Positions 2,686-31,622 of a DNA stretch of 40,932 bases are shown here, in pieces (the first letter of the stretch is position 1; the number at the start of each line of letters is the position of its first letter). The notes under the pieces are model-generated. The model saw only the letters and a program-made list of their open reading frames with translations. It did not search any database and was not told where the DNA came from. The translations under genes were made by a program, and so were the position numbers. This stretch comes from an uncultured Bacilli bacterium (GTDB lineage Bacteria; Bacillota_I; Bacilli_A; RF39; UBA660). The stretch spans positions 1-40,932 of the forward strand of contig CANQTA010000007.1 in the NCBI GenBank assembly GCA_947626655.1, given 5' to 3'.

Positions 2686-4395
2686 ATGACAAAAGAAAAA
2701 AACTATTTATGGAATCATTTTTATACTAAAGAAGAAAGAATTGTTAATATTCCTGATTTATCGGTTTATGATTATATGATGGATATTACGTCTTCTTATC
2801 GAAAGTTAGCAGTATTAAATTATTTTGGACGCAAAATTACTTATGAAGTATTTTGGGATTATATTGATAAATGTGCAAGAAGTTTAAAAGCTTTAGGCGT
2901 AAGAGAGAAAGATGTTGTTACAATATGTTTACCAAATACTCCCGAGGCAGTTATCTCCTTTTTTGCTATTAATAAAATTGGAGCTATTGTGAATATGGTG
3001 CATCCTTTAAGTGCTGAAAGTGAGATAAAAGATTATTTAAATAGTACGAATAGTACTGTTTTGATTGCTTTAAATCAATGTTATAGTAAGATAAAAAATA
3101 TTATTGAAGAGACGAAAGTATATCGAGTTATTATTGCATCTCCTTCTGATTCAATGCCACTTTTACTTAATACTATGTATAATGTTACTTTAGGAAGAAA
3201 AGATGAAAAGCCTAATAAAAATAGTTTTTATCTTTTTTGGAATAAATTTATTCATTTAGGTGATTCTTATCAAGGCATTATCAAAGCTAAAGTTAAAAGT
3301 AAAGATCCTTGTGTTATTTTACATAGTGGTGGTACAACCGGTACTCCTAAAAGTATTGTTTTGTCTAATCGTTCGATTATTGGGGTAAATGAACAAGCCA
3401 AAGTTTTCTTCGATATCGTTGAAGTTGGTGAATCAATTTTATCCATTTTGCCTCTTTTTCATTGCTTTGGTTTAGTGGTTGGAGTCTTTATTCCTATCTG
3501 TAAAGGAGCTACTACAATTTTAATTCCCACTTTTAATGCTAAAAGATTTGATAAATTATTAGTTAAGTATAATCCTAATTATATTATTGGAGTTCCAACC
3601 CTTTTTGAAGCTTTACTTAAAAATTCCTATTTAGATAACGTTTCTTTAGCATCGATTAAATGTTTAATTTCCGGAGGTGATTCCTTAACTCCTCAAAAAA
3701 ATGCCATTATTAATGAATTTTTAAAAAAACATGGTAGTCAAGGAAAAATCATCCAAGGCTATGGAATGACTGAAACAACGGGACCGGTTACTTTTGGGAC
3801 TAAGGGCAGTGATAAATTAGGTAGTATTGGTATTCCTCTACCTGGTAATATTGTTAAAATTTGTGATCCCAATACTTTTGAAGAATTAAAAGTCGGGGAA
3901 ATTGGCGAAATTTGTATTCATAGTTTTGTAGTAATGGATGGTTATTTAAATAATGAAAAAGCTACTAAAGAAGTTTTAGTTAAACATGCTGATGGTTTAG
4001 AATATATTCATACTGGTGATTTAGGTTATATGGATAATGATGGCGTATTGTTCTATGTTCAAAGAATAAAAAGAATAATTATTTCTTCTGGCTATAATAT
4101 TTATCCACAACATGTTGAAAATGTTTTAAAAGATATGGATTTAATTAAAGATGCTTGTGTAGTAGGAGTACCACATCCTTATAAAAAAGAAGTAGCTAAA
4201 GCTTTTATTATCTTAGAAGATGGAGTCGAAGAATCATATACAACTCTTAAAAAAATTATGGATTATGCTAATAAACATTTAGCGCATTATATGATTCCTA
4301 AAGAATATATTTTTAAAAAAGAATTTCCCAAAACCAAGATGGCTAAAGTTGATTATTTAAAATTACAAGAAGAATTACTAGAGAAAAATAAATAG
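2686..4395 (+). CDS. AMP-binding acyl-CoA synthetase (fatty acid-CoA ligase type)
   Basis: A full-length 569-aa member of the ANL superfamily, which activates carboxylic acids (here probably fatty acids) with ATP to acyl-AMP and then to a thioester. The core motifs are intact: the phosphate loop HSGGTTGTPKS near residues 211-221, GYGMTETTG near 362-370, the adenosine-binding TGDLGYMD near 443-450, and the hinge region KRIIISSGYNIYP. The C-terminal catalytic lysine motif is visible in KTKMAKVDY. The neighbouring plsC-like gene suggests that the acyl group is fed into phospholipid synthesis. Start at 2686 follows AGAAAGG. The exact chain length and acceptor (CoA or carrier protein) cannot be read from sequence. 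Confidence 0.85.
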   Translation: MTKEKNYLWNHFYTKEERIVNIPDLSVYDYMMDITSSYRKLAVLNYFGRKITYEVFWDYIDKCARSLKALGVREKDVVTICLPNTPEAVISFFAINKIGAIVNMVHPLSAESEIKDYLNSTNSTVLIALNQCYSKIKNIIEETKVYRVIIASPSDSMPLLLNTMYNVTLGRKDEKPNKNSFYLFWNKFIHLGDSYQGIIKAKVKSKDPCVILHSGGTTGTPKSIVLSNRSIIGVNEQAKVFFDIVEVGESILSILPLFHCFGLVVGVFIPICKGATTILIPTFNAKRFDKLLVKYNPNYIIGVPTLFEALLKNSYLDNVSLASIKCLISGGDSLTPQKNAIINEFLKKHGSQGKIIQGYGMTETTGPVTFGTKGSDKLGSIGIPLPGNIVKICDPNTFEELKVGEIGEICIHSFVVMDGYLNNEKATKEVLVKHADGLEYIHTGDLGYMDNDGVLFYVQRIKRIIISSGYNIYPQHVENVLKDMDLIKDACVVGVPHPYKKEVAKAFIILEDGVEESYTTLKKIMDYANKHLAHYMIPKEYIFKKEFPKTKMAKVDYLKLQEELLEKNK

Positions 4396-8458: not shown

Positions 8459-8482
8459 GTGGATATCTGTGGCAGAAAGTGG
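8459..8482 (+). promoter_or_regulatory. Candidate MraZ operator: three GTGG repeats at 10-bp spacing
   Basis: GTGG occurs at 8459-8462, 8469-8472 and 8479-8482, within decamers of the form (A/T)nGTGGnnn; the third is AAAGTGGGTG. MraZ proteins are known to bind tandem GTG-containing repeats upstream of their own gene (TGGGN in E. coli, AAAGTG-type boxes at 10-bp spacing in Mycoplasma). A further GTGG lies at 8431-8434. The third repeat also forms the ribosome binding site of mraZ. Confidence 0.65.
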
Positions 8483-8491
8483 GTGATATAA

Positions 8492-8929
8492 ATGTTCATG
8501 GGCGAATATCATCACAACATCGATGAAAAAGGTAGAATTGTTATACCTGGGAAGTTTAGAGAAGAAAAAGATAAAATAATTGTAACTCGTGGGGTAGAAA
8601 AGTGTTTGTATCTTTATACAGAAGAAGAGTGGCAAGTATTTGTTTCTAAATTAAATAAACTTTCTTACACTAAACATGATGCCCGAGCATTTATGCGTTC
8701 TTTCTTTGCAGGTGCTACTGCGTGTGAATTCGACAAAAATGGTCGAATCAATATTACCTCCCCGTTGGTTAGCTACGCCGGTTTATCTAAAGAATGTGTG
8801 ATAATCGGCGTAAATGACCATATTGAAATTTGGGATGAAACTAAATACAACGAATATATGGAAGAAAATCAAGCTAAATTAGAAGAGATTACTGAAAACT
8901 TATTTGAGGCCTATCATGAAACATTATAG
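8492..8929 (+). CDS. mraZ: Transcriptional regulator MraZ
   Basis: MraZ is the conserved DNA-binding protein that opens dcw clusters and controls them. The 145-aa protein has both halves of the duplicated AbrB-like fold: MFMGEYHHNIDEKGRIVIPGKFR at the N-terminus (motif split here for the reader: DEKGR at about residues 11-15) and the second copy with EFDKNGRINITSPL near residues 75-88. Start ATG 8492 is preceded by GTGGGTGATATAA, which doubles as a GTGG repeat, so binding of MraZ there could affect transcription and, indirectly, access to the start. The end of the gene overlaps rsmH by 14 bases. Confidence 0.95.
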   Translation: MFMGEYHHNIDEKGRIVIPGKFREEKDKIIVTRGVEKCLYLYTEEEWQVFVSKLNKLSYTKHDARAFMRSFFAGATACEFDKNGRINITSPLVSYAGLSKECVIIGVNDHIEIWDETKYNEYMEENQAKLEEITENLFEAYHETL

Positions 8930-12382: not shown

Positions 12383-12419
12383 AAAAACATATTATTAAAG
12401 TGGTGAATAATATGTTTTT
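12383..12419 (+). promoter_or_regulatory. Perfect 14-bp inverted repeat burying the start codon of the second PBP
   Basis: AAAAACATATTATT (12383-12396) is the exact reverse complement of AATAATATGTTTTT (12406-12419). The start codon ATG (12412-12414) is in the 3' arm, and the ribosome binding site lies in the 9-base loop AAAGTGGTG (12397-12405). This could be an RNA translation switch or a DNA operator. Confidence 0.7.
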
Positions 12420-14313
12420 TAATGATATTCATATTAGAATTAGGTTTGTTCTTTTAGTAGTTATAATAATTCTTATTTTAGTTATAGGTAAAGTTTTTTA
12501 TATTCAAGTATTTTCTTATAATAAATTAGCTAAAATAACTGAAGATTTATGGAGTCGAAAAATGACTATTAATGCCCCACGTGGTGATATAGTCGATCGT
12601 AATGGAGAAATACTAGCTACTAGTATTGTTACAACAACTATTTATGTAGTTCCAAATCAAATTAAAGATAAAGAAAAAGTATCTAAAGATATTGCAGAAA
12701 TATTAAATTGTGATTATGAAGATGTTTATAAATATGTTTCTAAAAAAAGTAGTATGGAAATTATTCGTAAGGGGATGGATTTAAATAGTGAAACAGCTGA
12801 TAAAATTGAAAAATTAGGTTATGATGGTGTTTATTTAGTAGTAGATTCTAAAAGATATTATCCTTATGGCGAAGCTCTATCCCATATTATAGGATTTGTA
12901 GGTAGTGATAATCAAGGCTTATCAGGTTTAGAGCTTACTTATGATGAGTATTTAAAAGGCACTAATGGGGAACTTAAATATTATAGTGATGGTAAAGGTA
13001 ATAAATTAGAAATACCGGATAGTTATGTCGCTCCATCTAAAGGGATGACTTTAGAATTAACTTTAGATATTGAGATTATAAAAGCAGTTGATAATGAACT
13101 TAAAAATGCGATGGATAAATATGATTCTGAACACGCTTTAAGTATTGTAATGAATCCCAAAACTGGTGAAATTTTAGCAATGGGTAGTAAACCTTCTTTT
13201 GATCCTGCAAATTATCAAAATTTTAGTGAAGAAGTCATCAATCGTAATTTACCAATTTGGATGACTTATGAACCAGGATCAACTTTTAAAATTATTACAT
13301 TAGCTAGTAGTATTGAAGAAAAAACAGTTGATCTATTTAAAGACCATTTTACAGATACAGGAGCGATTAATGTTGATGGTTCAACTATTCACTGTTGGAA
13401 ACATGGTGGTCATGGAAATCAAACTTATTTAGAAGTTGTTGAAAATAGTTGTAACCCTGGCTTTGTTTCATTAGGTCAAAAATTAGGTGTTAATAAACTA
13501 ATGAGTTATATTAAAAAATTTGGTTTTGGTGATAAAACAGGTATTGATTTAAATGGGGAAGGTAATGGAATTTTATTTAAGGAAGAGAAAATGGGTCCCG
13601 TAGAATTAGCTACCACAGCTTTTGGTCAAGGTATTAGTGTAACGCCGATACAACAAGTTGCAGCGGTTGGAGCAGCGATTAATGGCGGTTATTTAAACAC
13701 TCCTTATGTTGTAAAATCCATTATTGATGATAATAGTAAATCAATTGTATTTGCAAATAAACAACAAGTAAAAAGGCAAGTTATTAGTCCTGAAACCAGT
13801 GCCACAGTTCGCTTTGCTTTAGAAAGTGTAGTAAGTAATGGTTCGGGGAAAAATGCTTATATTGAAAATTACCGAGTAGGTGGTAAGACAGGAACAGCTC
13901 AAAAAGTTAGTGATGGTAAATATATGGTTGGCAATTATATCTTATCTTTTATTGGTTTTTTACCCGCTAATGATCCTGAAGCGATTGTCTATGTGGCAGT
14001 TGATAATCCTAAAGGTGTAACCCAATATGGTGGAACAGTTTCTGCTCCTATTGCTCGGAATATTATGTTATCATTAATTGAAACATTGAAAATAAAAGAA
14101 GCCAGTGGAGGCATGTTAAAAGAATATAGTTATTTAGATGTTAGATACTATCAATTACCTGATGTAGTGGGGATGAGTAAAAGTGAAGCAACTAAAGCTT
14201 TAAAAGAATTTAAAGTAAAATATAGTGGTAGTGGGGATAAAGTAGTTTATATGTCACCGGCTCCTAATACTTTTCAAAGTGTTGAAACAACAATTACATT
14301 GCTTTTAAATTGA
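12412..14313 (+). CDS. Class B penicillin-binding protein with one PASTA domain (SpoVD-like)
   Basis: A second transpeptidase of the FtsI/SpoVD family. The N-terminal helix spans about residues 8-28. The active-site motifs are STFK at 290-293 (catalytic Ser290), SCN at 346-348 and KTGTAQ from residue 492. A single PASTA domain closes the protein (QLPDVVGMSKSEATKALKEF onward), as in SpoVD. I start at ATG 12412, not the in-frame GTG at 12400, because AGTGGTG (12399-12405) lies 6 bases before 12412; this gives 633 aa. In Bacillus the order pbpB-spoVD is the same, but nothing here proves sporulation, and this could be a second vegetative enzyme. TGA is the stop codon. Confidence 0.88.
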   Translation: MFFNDIHIRIRFVLLVVIIILILVIGKVFYIQVFSYNKLAKITEDLWSRKMTINAPRGDIVDRNGEILATSIVTTTIYVVPNQIKDKEKVSKDIAEILNCDYEDVYKYVSKKSSMEIIRKGMDLNSETADKIEKLGYDGVYLVVDSKRYYPYGEALSHIIGFVGSDNQGLSGLELTYDEYLKGTNGELKYYSDGKGNKLEIPDSYVAPSKGMTLELTLDIEIIKAVDNELKNAMDKYDSEHALSIVMNPKTGEILAMGSKPSFDPANYQNFSEEVINRNLPIWMTYEPGSTFKIITLASSIEEKTVDLFKDHFTDTGAINVDGSTIHCWKHGGHGNQTYLEVVENSCNPGFVSLGQKLGVNKLMSYIKKFGFGDKTGIDLNGEGNGILFKEEKMGPVELATTAFGQGISVTPIQQVAAVGAAINGGYLNTPYVVKSIIDDNSKSIVFANKQQVKRQVISPETSATVRFALESVVSNGSGKNAYIENYRVGGKTGTAQKVSDGKYMVGNYILSFIGFLPANDPEAIVYVAVDNPKGVTQYGGTVSAPIARNIMLSLIETLKIKEASGGMLKEYSYLDVRYYQLPDVVGMSKSEATKALKEFKVKYSGSGDKVVYMSPAPNTFQSVETTITLLLN

Positions 14314-14332
14314 TGTCAATTTATGTCAAAAT
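14313..14332 (-). promoter_or_regulatory. Tandem TTGACAT motif upstream of mraY (copy 1, reverse orientation)
   Basis: On the plus strand ATGTCAA occurs at 14313-14319 and 14323-14329, a 10-bp direct repeat. The reverse complement of 14313-14332 matches 20868-20887, upstream of the SleB-like gene, at 19 of 20 positions. It is not a promoter on the minus strand, as no -10 lies at the right distance. Confidence 0.55.
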
Positions 14333-14367: not shown

Positions 14368-14373
14368 TATAAT
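14368..14373 (+). promoter_or_regulatory. Candidate -10 element for mraY
   Basis: A perfect TATAAT lies 18 bases before the mraY start. The -35 region (14345-14350) is poor, which would fit an activator-dependent promoter; the tandem TTGACAT motif ends 35 bases upstream of the -10. Confidence 0.45.
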
Positions 14374-14391: not shown

Positions 14392-15384
14392 ATGTTAATT
14401 CTAGCAAAAGCCGCGATGGCAATGATGTTAGGTTTTACTTTAGCTATTGCTAGTGGGTTAGTTTTTATTCCCATATTAAAAAAATTAAATGTTGGCCAAA
14501 TGGTTAGTCGAGAAATTAATAAAAGACATTTAAAAAAAGAAGGAACACCAACAATGGGAGGAATAATTTTTATTTTTCCGGTTATTCTTTCTTTAATTTT
14601 ATTATACATTAATGGTAGTATTGAATTTAGTTACAATATCTTTATTTTAGTTTTTGTTTTTCTAGCTTATGCAATTTTAGGTGGCGTTGATGATTACTTA
14701 AAGGTTAAAAAGAAAAATAATGCGGGTATTTCTATTGTTACTAAGTTTTTAGTTCAAATGATTATTGCTTTAATATTTTTCTACTTCTTTATGCGTGGTG
14801 GTGGTAATTCTACTTTAGTTTTCTTTGCTTTAAGACTTACTATTCCTTTAGGATGGATGTTTGGTATTTTTATATTATTTTTATTAGTAGGTACAACTAA
14901 TGCAGTTAATATCACTGATGGTTTAGATGGCCTTTGTGCTGGTTTATCTGCGATTGCCTTTTTAGCTTATGGAATTATTTCTTGGAATTGTGGTTGGTTA
15001 GAAGGTTATCAAGAAATTGCTATTTTTTGCTTTTTAATAGTCGGGGCTTTATTAGGATTTTTAGTTTATAATTCGCATCCTGCTCGCGTTTTTATGGGTG
15101 ATTTGGGCTCTTTATCTTTAGGAGGAGCTTTAGCAACAATTGCTATTTTAACTAGACATGAATTATCACTTGCGATTATTGGTGGCGTGTTTGTTATTGA
15201 AACTTTAAGTAGTTTTGTCCAAATTATAGCAATTAGAAAATTTCATAAAAAGATTTTCTTAAAAGCACCATTACATCATCATTTTGAAGAATTAAAATGG
15301 CATGAAAATGATATTGTCAAACTCTTTTATGTTATTGGTTTGTTACTTGCTATGGCAGCGATTACTTATGGAGTTTGGTTATAA
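14392..15384 (+). CDS. mraY: Phospho-N-acetylmuramoyl-pentapeptide-transferase
   Basis: MraY transfers phospho-MurNAc-pentapeptide to undecaprenyl phosphate, making lipid I in the membrane. About ten transmembrane helices are visible. The catalytic and substrate motifs are intact: GTPTMGG near residue 50, the DDYLK aspartate pair near residues 101-105, NAVNITDGLDGL near 171-182, FMGDLGSLSLGG near 234-245 and the metal-binding LHHHFE near 295. AGAGAGGTGG (14377-14386) lies 5 bases before ATG 14392; the in-frame GTG at 14383 lies inside that site and is rejected. Length 330 aa is normal. It is followed by ftsW after 19 bases. Confidence 0.95.
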   Translation: MLILAKAAMAMMLGFTLAIASGLVFIPILKKLNVGQMVSREINKRHLKKEGTPTMGGIIFIFPVILSLILLYINGSIEFSYNIFILVFVFLAYAILGGVDDYLKVKKKNNAGISIVTKFLVQMIIALIFFYFFMRGGGNSTLVFFALRLTIPLGWMFGIFILFLLVGTTNAVNITDGLDGLCAGLSAIAFLAYGIISWNCGWLEGYQEIAIFCFLIVGALLGFLVYNSHPARVFMGDLGSLSLGGALATIAILTRHELSLAIIGGVFVIETLSSFVQIIAIRKFHKKIFLKAPLHHHFEELKWHENDIVKLFYVIGLLLAMAAITYGVWL

Positions 15385-15403: not shown

Positions 15404-16489
15404 ATTAAAAGGGGTTTGGATAGAATACTTATAATTACCGTTATAATAATTTCTATTTTTGGTCTTATTATGATTTATTCTGCTAGCTTTGTATGGGCAC
15501 AATATAAATTTAATAATCCATTTCATTTTGTTACTATGCAAGGTATATTTTTATTAATAGGTTTAATTTTGTTATATATTCTTTCTCATATTGATTATCA
15601 TCTTTATTATAAGTATGCTAATATTATTTTATTTATTTGTGCTATCTTATTAATTTTAGTGTTAATTCCTGGATTAGGTAGTGTACGAAATGGAAGTCGT
15701 AGTTGGTTTGGAATTGGCCCTTTAGGTATTCAACCGTCAGAGTTTGCTAAAATTGGTTTAATTATCTATGTTGCTAAATATCTAACTAATAATAAAAAAA
15801 ATATGCAAAGTATTATTCATGGTGTTTTTCCCATTTTAGGAGTTATTGGCATCTTCTTTTTATTAATTATGTTAGAACCTGATTTTGGAACTGCTATGGT
15901 TATTACTTTAACTTTAGTTTGTTTAATTTTTATAAGTGGTGTTCAAATATCCTTTTTTCTTAAAGTTGGATTAGCTGGTATTTTAGGAATTGTGGGAATT
16001 ATTATTGCTGCTCCTTATCGGGTTAAAAGAATTGTTAGTTTTATTAATCCTTGGAGTGATCCTTTAGGAGCGGGATATCAAATTTTACAAAGTTTATATG
16101 CTATTGGTCCAGGTGGCCTATTAGGACAAGGATTTTTTAAATCAAGGCAAAAATATTTTTATTTACCTGAACCGCAAACCGATTTTATCTTTTCTATTAT
16201 TAGTGAAGAACTAGGATTTTTAGGAGTTTTAATTGTTACATCTTTATTTTTAATTATTTTTTATCGAGGTATTACTATTTCTTTAAAAGCTTCGGATTTA
16301 TTTGGAAAATATTTAAGTTTTGGTCTTGCCTTTGGTTTGATAATTCAAGCCAGTCTTAATTTAATGGTGGTTGTGGGATTAATTCCGGTCACTGGAGTAA
16401 CTCTTCCGTTCTTATCTTATGGTGGTAGTAGTCTTTTAGTTAGTATGGCCAGTATTGGTATTCTTTTAAATATTTCGAAAAATAGTTAA
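15404..16489 (+). CDS. ftsW: SEDS peptidoglycan polymerase FtsW/SpoVE, probable ATT start
   Basis: FtsW is the SEDS-family glycosyltransferase that works with the class B PBP at the septum. Ten membrane helices and the family motifs are present: GSRSWFGIGPLGIQPSEFAK, PEPQTDFIFSIISEELGFLG and PVTGVTLPFLSYGGSSLL. No ATG or GTG start fits. TTG 15416 has GGGG only one base upstream, too close. AGGGGG (15391-15396) lies 7 bases before an in-frame ATT at 15404, which would give MKRGLDRILIITV, a family-like N-terminus. I therefore propose ATT as the start, in the manner of infC; if wrong, use TTG 15416. The downstream murD, murG and ftsQAZ usually found next are absent here. Confidence 0.88.
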   Translation: MKRGLDRILIITVIIISIFGLIMIYSASFVWAQYKFNNPFHFVTMQGIFLLIGLILLYILSHIDYHLYYKYANIILFICAILLILVLIPGLGSVRNGSRSWFGIGPLGIQPSEFAKIGLIIYVAKYLTNNKKNMQSIIHGVFPILGVIGIFFLLIMLEPDFGTAMVITLTLVCLIFISGVQISFFLKVGLAGILGIVGIIIAAPYRVKRIVSFINPWSDPLGAGYQILQSLYAIGPGGLLGQGFFKSRQKYFYLPEPQTDFIFSIISEELGFLGVLIVTSLFLIIFYRGITISLKASDLFGKYLSFGLAFGLIIQASLNLMVVVGLIPVTGVTLPFLSYGGSSLLVSMASIGILLNISKNS

Positions 16490-20824: not shown

Positions 20825-20867
20825 AAAGTCAATAGCTATTGTTAATTTTTGGTAAAATAGCCCGAAT

Positions 20868-20909
20868 ATTTTGACATAATTTGACATAAACTTAAATATA
20901 TGCTATAAT
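20868..20909 (+). promoter_or_regulatory. Consensus promoter with tandem TTGACAT motif (copy 2) before the SleB-like gene
   Basis: TTGACATAA occurs at 20871 and again at 20881. The second copy is the -35 of a perfect promoter: TTGACA (20881-20886), 17 bp, TGC-TATAAT (20901-20909). The segment 20868-20887 matches the reverse complement of the motif before mraY at 19 of 20 bases. Confidence 0.8.
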
Positions 20910-20934
20910 TATTTTGTTATTCAGGGGGATAATG

Positions 20935-21588
20935 ATGAATAATTTAGTTGATAGTACATATCACCTCCGCAAGTTGTGGAGGGGTGTCAAAAAAACAATT
21001 TTAAAATATAATGTCGGTTATTTAGTATTACCAATAATCTATTTAATAGTTATTATGATTGTCGTTCCAACATCAAAAGAAATAGTCAATATGGTTAAAG
21101 TAACTAAGATGGATTCTTATACGGTTACAAGAATAACTAAAGAAGATAAAAAAGATATTATTTTAGATCGTTTTTCATTAACTGATGAACAATTTAAAGT
21201 AATTGTTGGAGTTACCTTAGCTGAAGCTGAGTACAATTCCTATGAAGATAGTTATGCAGTTATAAATACCATTTATAATCGTATTCATAGTAAAAGTTGG
21301 GTAAAATCAATTGAAAATAAATTTGGTAAAGATAAAGGTAAAAGTTTATATTATCAAGTAATTTCACCTAATCAGTTTACGGTTTATCAAAGTGGTAGTT
21401 ATAAAAAATATATGGATGATACTGAAAGTGTTGGTTATAATGCGATTATTGATTTCTTATTTACGGAAAAAATAATGCATAATTATTTATCATTTCGTTC
21501 TAATCATATTAAAGTGGCTGGTAGTGAGTCATATAGTTTAAAAGGAAATAATTATTTTAATGTTTTATTAGATGAAAATAGAGTATAG
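20935..21588 (+). CDS. Membrane-anchored SleB-like cell wall hydrolase
   Basis: A 217-aa protein with an N-terminal cytoplasmic stretch, a membrane helix near residues 32-50 (VLPIIYLIVIMIVVP), and an outside domain resembling the SleB/Hydrolase_2 lytic enzyme fold: the catalytic-type Glu in TLAEAEYNSYEDSYAVINTI, YNRI, then SPNQFTVYQSGSY and the C-terminal HNYLSFRS and GNNYFNVL. SleB enzymes cut peptidoglycan glycan strands, classically in spore germination, but the family also has vegetative members. The start is ATG 20935, 6 bases after AGGGGG; 20932 is too close. A GC-rich hairpin with a 16S-tail-like ATCACCTCC follows at 20960-20986. The TTGACAT box and consensus promoter suggest strong, regulated expression. 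Confidence 0.78.
   Translation: MNNLVDSTYHLRKLWRGVKKTILKYNVGYLVLPIIYLIVIMIVVPTSKEIVNMVKVTKMDSYTVTRITKEDKKDIILDRFSLTDEQFKVIVGVTLAEAEYNSYEDSYAVINTIYNRIHSKSWVKSIENKFGKDKGKSLYYQVISPNQFTVYQSGSYKKYMDDTESVGYNAIIDFLFTEKIMHNYLSFRSNHIKVAGSESYSLKGNNYFNVLLDENRV
20960..20986 (+). promoter_or_regulatory. GC-rich hairpin with anti-Shine-Dalgarno sequence in the SleB-like gene
   Basis: CCTCCGC (20964-20970) pairs with GTGGAGG (20976-20982) around AAGTT. ATCACCTCC at 20960-20968 equals the bacterial 16S rRNA 3' tail and could instead pair with this gene's own GGGGG ribosome binding site at 20924-20928. Confidence 0.45.
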
Positions 21589-29770: not shown

Positions 29771-30424
29771 ATGGAAATATTGTTAATCGAAGATAATTTA
29801 AATATTATTAAAGGACTTGAGTATGCTTTTAAGCAAGAAAATTTAACTTTAAATACAGCAACTACTTTAACAAAAGCGACGAAATATTTGCAAGAACAAC
29901 AAGTTAATTTAATTATTTTAGATATTACTTTACCAGATGGTGATGGTATAGTATTTTATCAAGACTACATCCAATCATTAAATATTCCTGTCATTTTTTT
30001 AACTGCAAAAGATGAAGAAGAAGTTATTGTCAATTGTTTTAATTTAGGCTGTGATGATTATGTTACCAAACCGTTTTCTACTAAAGAATTATTAGCTAGA
30101 GTCAAAAGAATTTTATTAAAAGCTAAGCAAAAAAGTCTTATAACTGTGCAAAATATTAGTTTTGATTTAGATAAAATGGTAGTTTCCAAAAATAATGTCA
30201 AAATTGAACTCACAAGTTTAGAATTAAAAATCTTGCAAATGTTATTTTTAAATTTAGGTAAAGTAGTGACAAGAACGAGTATCTTAGATAAAATATGGGA
30301 ATGGACTGGTAATGATGTAGATGACCATACGGTAACGGTTTATTTAAAAAGAATTAGAGAAAAATTAGGGGAAGATATAATTGTGACTGTTAAAGGAATT
30401 GGGTATTTAATCGATGAAAAATAA
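29771..30424 (+). CDS. OmpR-family response regulator
   Basis: A 217-aa regulator with a receiver domain (residues 1-115) and a winged-helix DNA-binding domain (about 125-217). The receiver keeps the acidic pair Glu7-Asp8, the phosphoacceptor Asp51 in LIILDITLPDGDG, Thr78 and Lys100 (YVTKPFS). The output domain shows LTSLELKILQMLFLNLGKVVTR and the recognition-helix region DDHTVTVYLKRIREKLG. It is coupled to the kinase gene by an 11-base overlap. OmpR-type proteins bind 11-bp direct repeats, so the TGTAAC repeat before the neighbouring ABC genes is the natural candidate target. Confidence 0.93.
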   Translation: MEILLIEDNLNIIKGLEYAFKQENLTLNTATTLTKATKYLQEQQVNLIILDITLPDGDGIVFYQDYIQSLNIPVIFLTAKDEEEVIVNCFNLGCDDYVTKPFSTKELLARVKRILLKAKQKSLITVQNISFDLDKMVVSKNNVKIELTSLELKILQMLFLNLGKVVTRTSILDKIWEWTGNDVDDHTVTVYLKRIREKLGEDIIVTVKGIGYLIDEK

Positions 30425-31622
30425 AATAAATTTAAAAAGATATTTAACAATTATTAGTCTCTTTATCATATTATTTATAATTATTATTATGAGTAATAAA
30501 TATGAAGAATACTTAAAATATAATCAAAATTATAATAAGAAAATAAATAATATTGTTGCTTTAATAAAGAAGAATAATTTAACTATCTCTGAAAAAGAAT
30601 TGTTACAAATTTTAAATGATGATACAAATGATGATTATTTAGCTAAATATGGTTTATTTATTGATGAAGATATTATTATTAAAGCCAATACAGAAATATT
30701 TTGGCATTATTTTATTAACGATTTAATATTAATTTTATTATTGGTATTAATAATTATTGGTTTGTTTTTAAAATATAATCGTAAAAAAGATCAGGAAATA
30801 AAAAATATTACGGAATGTATTAAAGAAATAAATAAAAATAATTATGAATTATATATAGATACAATTAGTGAAGATGAATTGTCTATTTTAAAAAATGAAT
30901 TATATAAAATAACGGTTAATTTAAAAAGTATGGCTGATAATTCTTTAAAAGATAAGATAAATATTAAAGATAGCTTACAAGATATTTCCCATCAATTAAA
31001 AACACCGCTTACTTCAATAATGATTATGATTGATAATATTTTAGATAATGAGATGGATCCAAAAGTTCAAAATGATTTTTTAAGAGATATCAAAAGAGAA
31101 GTTATAAATATTAAATTTTTAGTCGATGAAATATTAAAATTAGCTAAAATAGATGCTAATAGTGTAGTTTTTCATAAAGAGAACATAATAGTTGAAGATT
31201 TAATTAATGATGTATGTAAAAATGTTAGTTCTCTAAGTGATTTAAAAAATATTGATATCATAATTAAAGGTAAAGATGCTCATATATTAGGAGATTATAA
31301 ATGGCAAAAAGAAGCATTAACTAATATTTTAAAAAATGCTTTAGAATATTCTTATGATAATAGTGAAATAATTATTAATTTTGAGCAAAATAAAATTTAT
31401 ACGGAAATTAAAATTGAAGATTTTGGAGTAGGTATTAAAAAAGAAGATTTAGACAATCTTTTTAAAAGATTTTACAAAGGAAGTAATTTAAAAGATGACA
31501 GTGTGGGAATAGGTATGAATTTAGCCAAAAAAATTATTGAAAAAGATAATGGAATTGTGAGTATAAAAAGGAAGAATAATGGTACAATTTTTACTATTAA
31601 ATATTTTCAAAATTTGCTATAA
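30414..31622 (+). CDS. Sensor histidine kinase
   Basis: A 402-aa membrane kinase. Two helices (about residues 10-27 and 99-119) enclose an outside segment of about 70 residues, too large for the intramembrane-sensing kinases that serve Bce transporters (which have almost no loop). The dimerisation helix carries DISHQLKTPLTSI with the phosphoacceptor His193. The ATPase domain has the N box (LKNALEYSYD), DFGVGIKKEDL and GIGMNLAKKI. It would phosphorylate the regulator encoded just upstream. The start ATG overlaps the regulator gene. What it senses is unknown; context suggests a signal connected with the ABC transporter. Confidence 0.92.
   Translation: MKNKINLKRYLTIISLFIILFIIIIMSNKYEEYLKYNQNYNKKINNIVALIKKNNLTISEKELLQILNDDTNDDYLAKYGLFIDEDIIIKANTEIFWHYFINDLILILLLVLIIIGLFLKYNRKKDQEIKNITECIKEINKNNYELYIDTISEDELSILKNELYKITVNLKSMADNSLKDKINIKDSLQDISHQLKTPLTSIMIMIDNILDNEMDPKVQNDFLRDIKREVINIKFLVDEILKLAKIDANSVVFHKENIIVEDLINDVCKNVSSLSDLKNIDIIIKGKDAHILGDYKWQKEALTNILKNALEYSYDNSEIIINFEQNKIYTEIKIEDFGVGIKKEDLDNLFKRFYKGSNLKDDSVGIGMNLAKKIIEKDNGIVSIKRKNNGTIFTIKYFQNLL

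Follow-up and report, generated by a model that had tools for sequence, protein, structure and literature searches.

The mraY locus and its tandem element

The window analysed here is a stretch of 40,932 nucleotides from an uncultured Bacilli bacterium. A SpoVD-like penicillin-binding protein (PBP) with a PASTA domain is encoded at 12400-14313 on the + strand, followed by mraY for the phospho-N-acetylmuramoyl-pentapeptide transferase (14392-15384, +; Pfam Glycos_transf_4 and MraY_sig1) and then by a gene of the FtsW/RodA/SpoVE family (15416-16489, +). A predicted tandem operator, ATGTCAA-TTT-ATGTCAA, is located at 14313-14329 (+) and possesses the half-sites TGTCAA at 14314-14319 and 14324-14329. 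This element starts on the final base of the PBP stop codon, and mraY is the first gene after it. The -10 box of the mraY promoter, TATAAT at 14368-14373 (+), is preceded by an invariant G, and no -35 box is present 17 bp before it. About 38-39 bp separate the last base of the element from the -10 box. The original prediction, a site about 35 bp upstream of a TATAAT with a poor -35, was thus close; 39 bp were measured and a usable -35 is absent.

The + strand reads ATGTCAATTTATGTCAAAAT at 14313-14332. Its reverse complement, ATTTTGACATAAATTGACAT, had been predicted to match 20868-20887 (ATTTTGACATAATTTGACAT) at 19 of 20 bases, with two TTGACAT units at a 10-bp period in both copies; direct sequence comparison confirmed both statements. 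The bare match is unremarkable by itself, because this AT-rich window holds five pairs of 20-mers with at most one mismatch, and five dinucleotide shuffles of it hold 2, 2, 5, 6 and 7. The unusual part is the internal tandem structure: exact TTGACAT-N3-TTGACAT occurs twice in the window and never in 100 shuffles. The same two sites are the sole exact copies in the 1.48-Mb assembly. With up to two mismatches, 36 matches were found genome-wide against 10 for the reversed-pattern control. A looser scan of the window (up to three mismatches) returned 14 matches for 9.7 expected, which is not above chance. An RNA element at 14313-14329 was also considered and rejected, as the Rfam search matched just one tRNA within the window.

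Conservation of the mraY site

Orthologues of mraY from congeneric genomes were obtained by protein similarity, and the upstream DNA of 34 genomes was read in gene orientation. TGTMAA-N4/5-TGTMAA (M is A or C) with at most one mismatch was found before mraY in 26 of them. Seventeen of the 34 have a perfect TGTMAA-N4-TGTMAA, three have N4 with one mismatch, and six have N5 with one mismatch, of which the matches in G009 and G018 use the end of the PBP gene and are less certain. The site starts 54-56 bp before an invariant TATAAT in the congeneric genomes. In the alignment, the half-sites and the -10 box with its preceding G stand out against a poorly conserved spacer, and a usable -35 is lacking in these genomes as well. 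Outside the genus, where mraY is 62-76% identical, TGTMAA-type tandems with periods of 10, 11 and sometimes 12 bp lie in the same place. These relatives are mostly metagenome-assembled genomes (MAGs) labelled Bacilli, Bacillales, Tenericutes or Mycoplasma, many of them from 'Lapin' samples.

The site was lost or changed in two subclades. The clade of G001, G008, G010 and G051 has CGTAAA at both mraY and the SleB-like gene described below. Coevolution of both sites with the regulator was considered for this clade and dropped; the change is better read as a loss at mraY, since another target in the same genomes, gene X (see below), retains TTTACA. In G019, G045, G047 and G050, GACAG...TTGACTGTCAAA stands in place of the site and is nearly an inverted repeat in some of them.

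The inverted copy upstream of a SleB-like hydrolase gene

The second copy in the window, TTGACAT-AAT-TTGACAT at 20871-20887 (+), precedes a gene for a SleB-like cell wall hydrolase with an N-terminal membrane segment (20935-21588, +), whose Pfam Hydrolase_2 match is weak and below the curated cut-off. Its downstream half, TTGACA at 20881-20886, is a consensus -35 box placed 17 bp from the TATAAT at 20904-20909 (+), a feature absent from the original prediction. A total of 37 of 38 genomes possess an orthologue of this gene, obtained by protein and not by motif. The inverted form TTKACA-N4-TTGACA-N17-TATAAT is highly conserved before these genes: in 33 of 34 congeners TTKACR precedes the -35 by exactly 10 bp. 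A further conserved element, TGTTAATTTTTGGTAA, is located at 20840-20855 (+), 64 bp before the TATAAT; it has the orientation of the mraY site and is present in 24 of 34 genomes. Relatives of the SleB-like protein were not found among phage records.

Some other features were seen at the start of this gene. The leader TATTTTGTTCATTCAGGGGGA (20910-20930), between the -10 box and the start codon, is strongly conserved genus-wide. A GC-rich hairpin, CACCTCC...GGAGGGGTG, occupies 20958-20987 in the first codons, and the region 20912-21000 folds with -21.1 kcal/mol (z -2.6). Arms of the CCTCC/GGAGG type were also noticed by eye in relatives.

Further targets

A genus-wide scan for TTKACAT-N3-TTGACA-N17-TATAAT with at most one mismatch returned 52 matches, and its reversed control none. 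The matches at genes other than the SleB-like one include gene X, which encodes an uncharacterised protein of about 260 aa and is followed downstream by a peptide deformylase gene. Gene X is divergent from lepA in the window's own genome (L009 2610-3391; G000:C1:70102-70887) and was found, by protein, in 36 of 38 congeners; searches of Pfam and NCBIfam gave no match to it. Of 27 orthologues, 26 have TTKACA 10 or 11 bp ahead of the -35, as do six of six more, which makes 32 of the 33 with a readable -35; the 11-bp spacing is common.

Three of the matches are promoters of OLE RNA (RF01071, 221-227 bits), which is located directly 3' of the tandem TTGACA promoter in G006, G043 and G044 (L417 1837-2355, L403 1666-2186 and L412 1865-2386, respectively); it was not found at the examined sites of the window's own genome. 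A search of titles and abstracts on OLE RNA gave nothing on its transcriptional control, which makes a specific predicted operator at OLE useful. The same tandem promoter also precedes an uncharacterised gene of about 290 aa (LITLKELNYV...) in three genomes (L082, L085 and L088; strict and loose patterns), one copy of which was scanned against Pfam and gave no match.

One half-site in two geometries

When read in one orientation, both half-sites at mraY and the upstream halves at the SleB-like gene and gene X are all TGT(C/A)AA. C and A are both frequent at position 4 in all four half-site sets, and the flanks differ. The same half-site thus recurs though its two orientations serve different promoter geometries, and a single DNA-binding protein common to all targets would be the simplest reading. 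Across dozens of species of this uncultured gut-bacterial genus, the tandem motif is kept before mraY, before a wall-cutting gene and before a few others. This conservation across congeners settles its status: the element is almost certainly a genuine operator, and TGTCAA/TGTAAA in tandem is very probably bound by one regulator. The original prediction of a regulator-type site was borne out in this respect. Absence before mraY in close relatives and random scatter, the two outcomes named in advance as contrary to it, did not occur: the site, which mraY has in common with the SleB-like gene, is retained in relatives, among them the 26 genomes above.

The targets appear to constitute a real and conserved small regulon with a variant of the OmpR/WalR-type direct-repeat site. 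The idea of a common cell-wall regulon stands in part: mraY and the SleB-like gene do share a regulator-type site, but gene X with the deformylase gene behind it is a target as well, as is OLE RNA in three congeners. At the SleB-like gene and the extra targets, the element overlaps the -35 in the opposite orientation and would likely mediate repression, unlike at mraY. Judged from position, the most likely effects are activation at mraY, where the site lies upstream of a promoter without a -35, and repression wherever a half-site lies on the consensus -35, as it does at OLE, gene X and the SleB-like gene.

Proposed mechanism and candidate regulators

Direct repeats one turn apart fit the OmpR/PhoB family, and same-direction TGTMAA units at 10 or 11 bp are indeed found at mraY, the SleB-like gene and gene X. 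A regulator of OmpR type is a likely occupant of the site. In the mechanism we propose, a winged-helix regulator of this family would bind head to tail on the two half-sites, one helical turn (10 or 11 bp) apart. The bound dimer upstream of the -35-less mraY promoter would recruit RNA polymerase and activate mraY and ftsW within the wall cluster. When bound before the SleB-like hydrolase gene, the gene X-deformylase operon and OLE RNA, the regulator would cover the consensus -35 and repress transcription. The active regulator would then give more wall-precursor synthesis and less wall cutting. The whole proposal, an OmpR/PhoB-family operator with TGT(C/A)AA half-sites, activation at mraY, repression elsewhere, and RR-A (described next) as the best candidate regulator, seems to us moderately probable.

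Five OmpR-type proteins are encoded in the window's own genome; two of them, beyond RR-A, RR-B and RR-C, are seen in few relatives. RR-A (G000:C10) is PhoB-like and present in 33 of 38 genomes, and most genomes lacking it are incomplete MAGs. It is the sole OmpR-type protein in G009 and G040, both of which keep the sites. Its gene is followed by that of a membrane kinase with HAMP and HisKA domains and without a PAS domain; in many genomes a LytR-CpsA-Psr gene or an LTA-synthase-like gene lies upstream. The recognition helix RT(V/I)DTHIKTLR is nearly invariant. Among profile scores, PhoB is best (210, cut-off 296), and YycF scores 191 (cut-off 340). Within the core promoter of RR-A, about 33 genomes have a different conserved direct repeat, TTTCAY-N5-TTTCACA, with an 11-bp period (L420 ~3690-3750). 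It is possibly an autoregulation site, and in that case RR-A may prefer a sequence other than TTKACA. G018 (92% complete) lacks OmpR-type proteins altogether and still has TTTACA-N4-TTGACA at the SleB-like gene, although the site before mraY is degraded in this genome and no gene X turned up there. That RR-A itself is the regulator is a plausible assignment that falls a little short of probable.

Three other candidates were set aside. RR-B, an OmpR-family response regulator encoded with a histidine kinase in the window (29771-31622, +), is lacking in G009, G015, G022 and G040, which keep the sites. The VanR-like RR-C is missing from 12 of 38 genomes. The WhiA core GAYACRCY (PMC11701221) is present in neither window site.

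The predicted site also resembles operators of the wider OmpR family. The Pho box of PhoB is a direct repeat of TGTCA with an 11-bp period. The TGTCA core and direct repeat are shared, and the best candidate regulator here is PhoB-like; the 11-bp period of Pho boxes is a difference, and no phosphate genes were seen among the present targets. CenR, an OmpR-family protein of Rhodobacter sphaeroides, recognises TGA-N8-TGA with a 10-bp spacing upstream of envelope genes (PMC9275681). It thus shares the direct repeat, the 10-bp period and the envelope targets, and differs in half-site and lineage; moreover, mraY responds only indirectly in the CenR system.

A bolder version of the proposal, which we regard as rather doubtful, is that a PhoB-like two-component system took over the role of WalKR with an operator of its own, using one site in opposite orientations to raise transcription of mraY/ftsW and to lower that of the SleB-like hydrolase, of the deformylase operon and of OLE RNA, which is membrane-associated. 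If true, envelope control and OLE RNA would be connected at the level of transcription in a walled, Mollicutes-related gut lineage. The regulon is defined from sequence alone in an uncultured relative of the wall-less Mollicutes, and a single regulatory site would connect the synthesis of wall precursors and the cutting of the wall with OLE RNA and an uncharacterised gene.

Comparison with known operators and alternative explanations

The nearest described operator is that of WalR, with the consensus TGTWAH-N5-TGTWAH (PMC9210968, PMC4168254). WalR, YycF and VicR sites are likewise direct repeats of TGTnAA-type hexamers about one turn apart, with wall-gene targets and possible overlap with promoter elements, as reported for VicR (PMC4168254). 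The element at 14313-14329 departs from this consensus with TGTMAA half-sites and a period of 10; position 4 is C or A instead of A or T, and the period is 10 or 11. The 10-bp period had originally been held to set the site apart from WalR (11 bp), a distinction that fails, as both 10 and 11 bp occur at orthologous promoters in the genus and among its wider relatives. A true WalR (YycF) operator, belonging to a WalKR system that tolerates C at position 4 and a period of 10 bp, would agree with the N5 spacing of some orthologous sites, with the promoter overlap and with the wall genes among the targets. We consider it unlikely: a profile scan found no YycF orthologue among RR-A, RR-B and RR-C (best 212 bits, cut-off 340), the RR-A kinase has HAMP without a PAS domain, and one added spacer base abolished WalR binding in B. 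subtilis (PMC4168254). Furthermore, mraY, gene X-deformylase and OLE RNA correspond to no described Wal set. A WalR-like site can, it seems, persist without a recognised WalR. A repressor outside the OmpR family, of the CtsR kind, is less likely still. CtsR blocks transcription by binding tandem heptads, (A/G)GTCAAA-NAN-(A/G)GTCAAA, across the -35/-10 region (PMC12634643), and the heptad-N3-heptad geometry, the 10-bp period, the GTCAA core and the -35 overlap are all matched here. However, the first base is T where CtsR sites have A/G, GTAAA and GTCAA are equally frequent, spacing is flexible with 11 bp common at gene X, and no clp genes were recognised among the examined targets. The CtsR family matched in none of 38 genomes, in a search whose control found the L. 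lactis protein but missed that of B. subtilis.

Promoter architecture would be another explanation, in which the SleB-like, gene X and OLE promoters simply carry a duplicated -35 and the mraY copy is coincidental. In every one of these promoters, one half-site does coincide with a consensus -35 at 17 bp from TATAAT. The mraY copy, however, lies in the inverted orientation, does not act as a -35 and is independently conserved in position and sequence; the upstream half is TTTACA as often as TTGACA, unlike a -35; and about half of the consensus promoters in the fetched loci, a sample biased by locus fetching, have no upstream TTKACA. We thus hold this explanation to be very improbable, and favour an OmpR/PhoB-family operator.

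The least probable of the alternatives, which we would scarcely entertain, is binding of the mraY site by MraZ, which regulates the division and wall cluster. The mraZ gene does lie in the window (8492-8929), and MraZ boxes are repeats every 10 bp. The repeats that precede mraZ at 8459-8482, 10 bp apart, are GTGG (at 8459, 8469 and 8479), which we take to be the usual MraZ-box core; the mraY site has TGTCAA, and these repeats are unlike TGTMAA.
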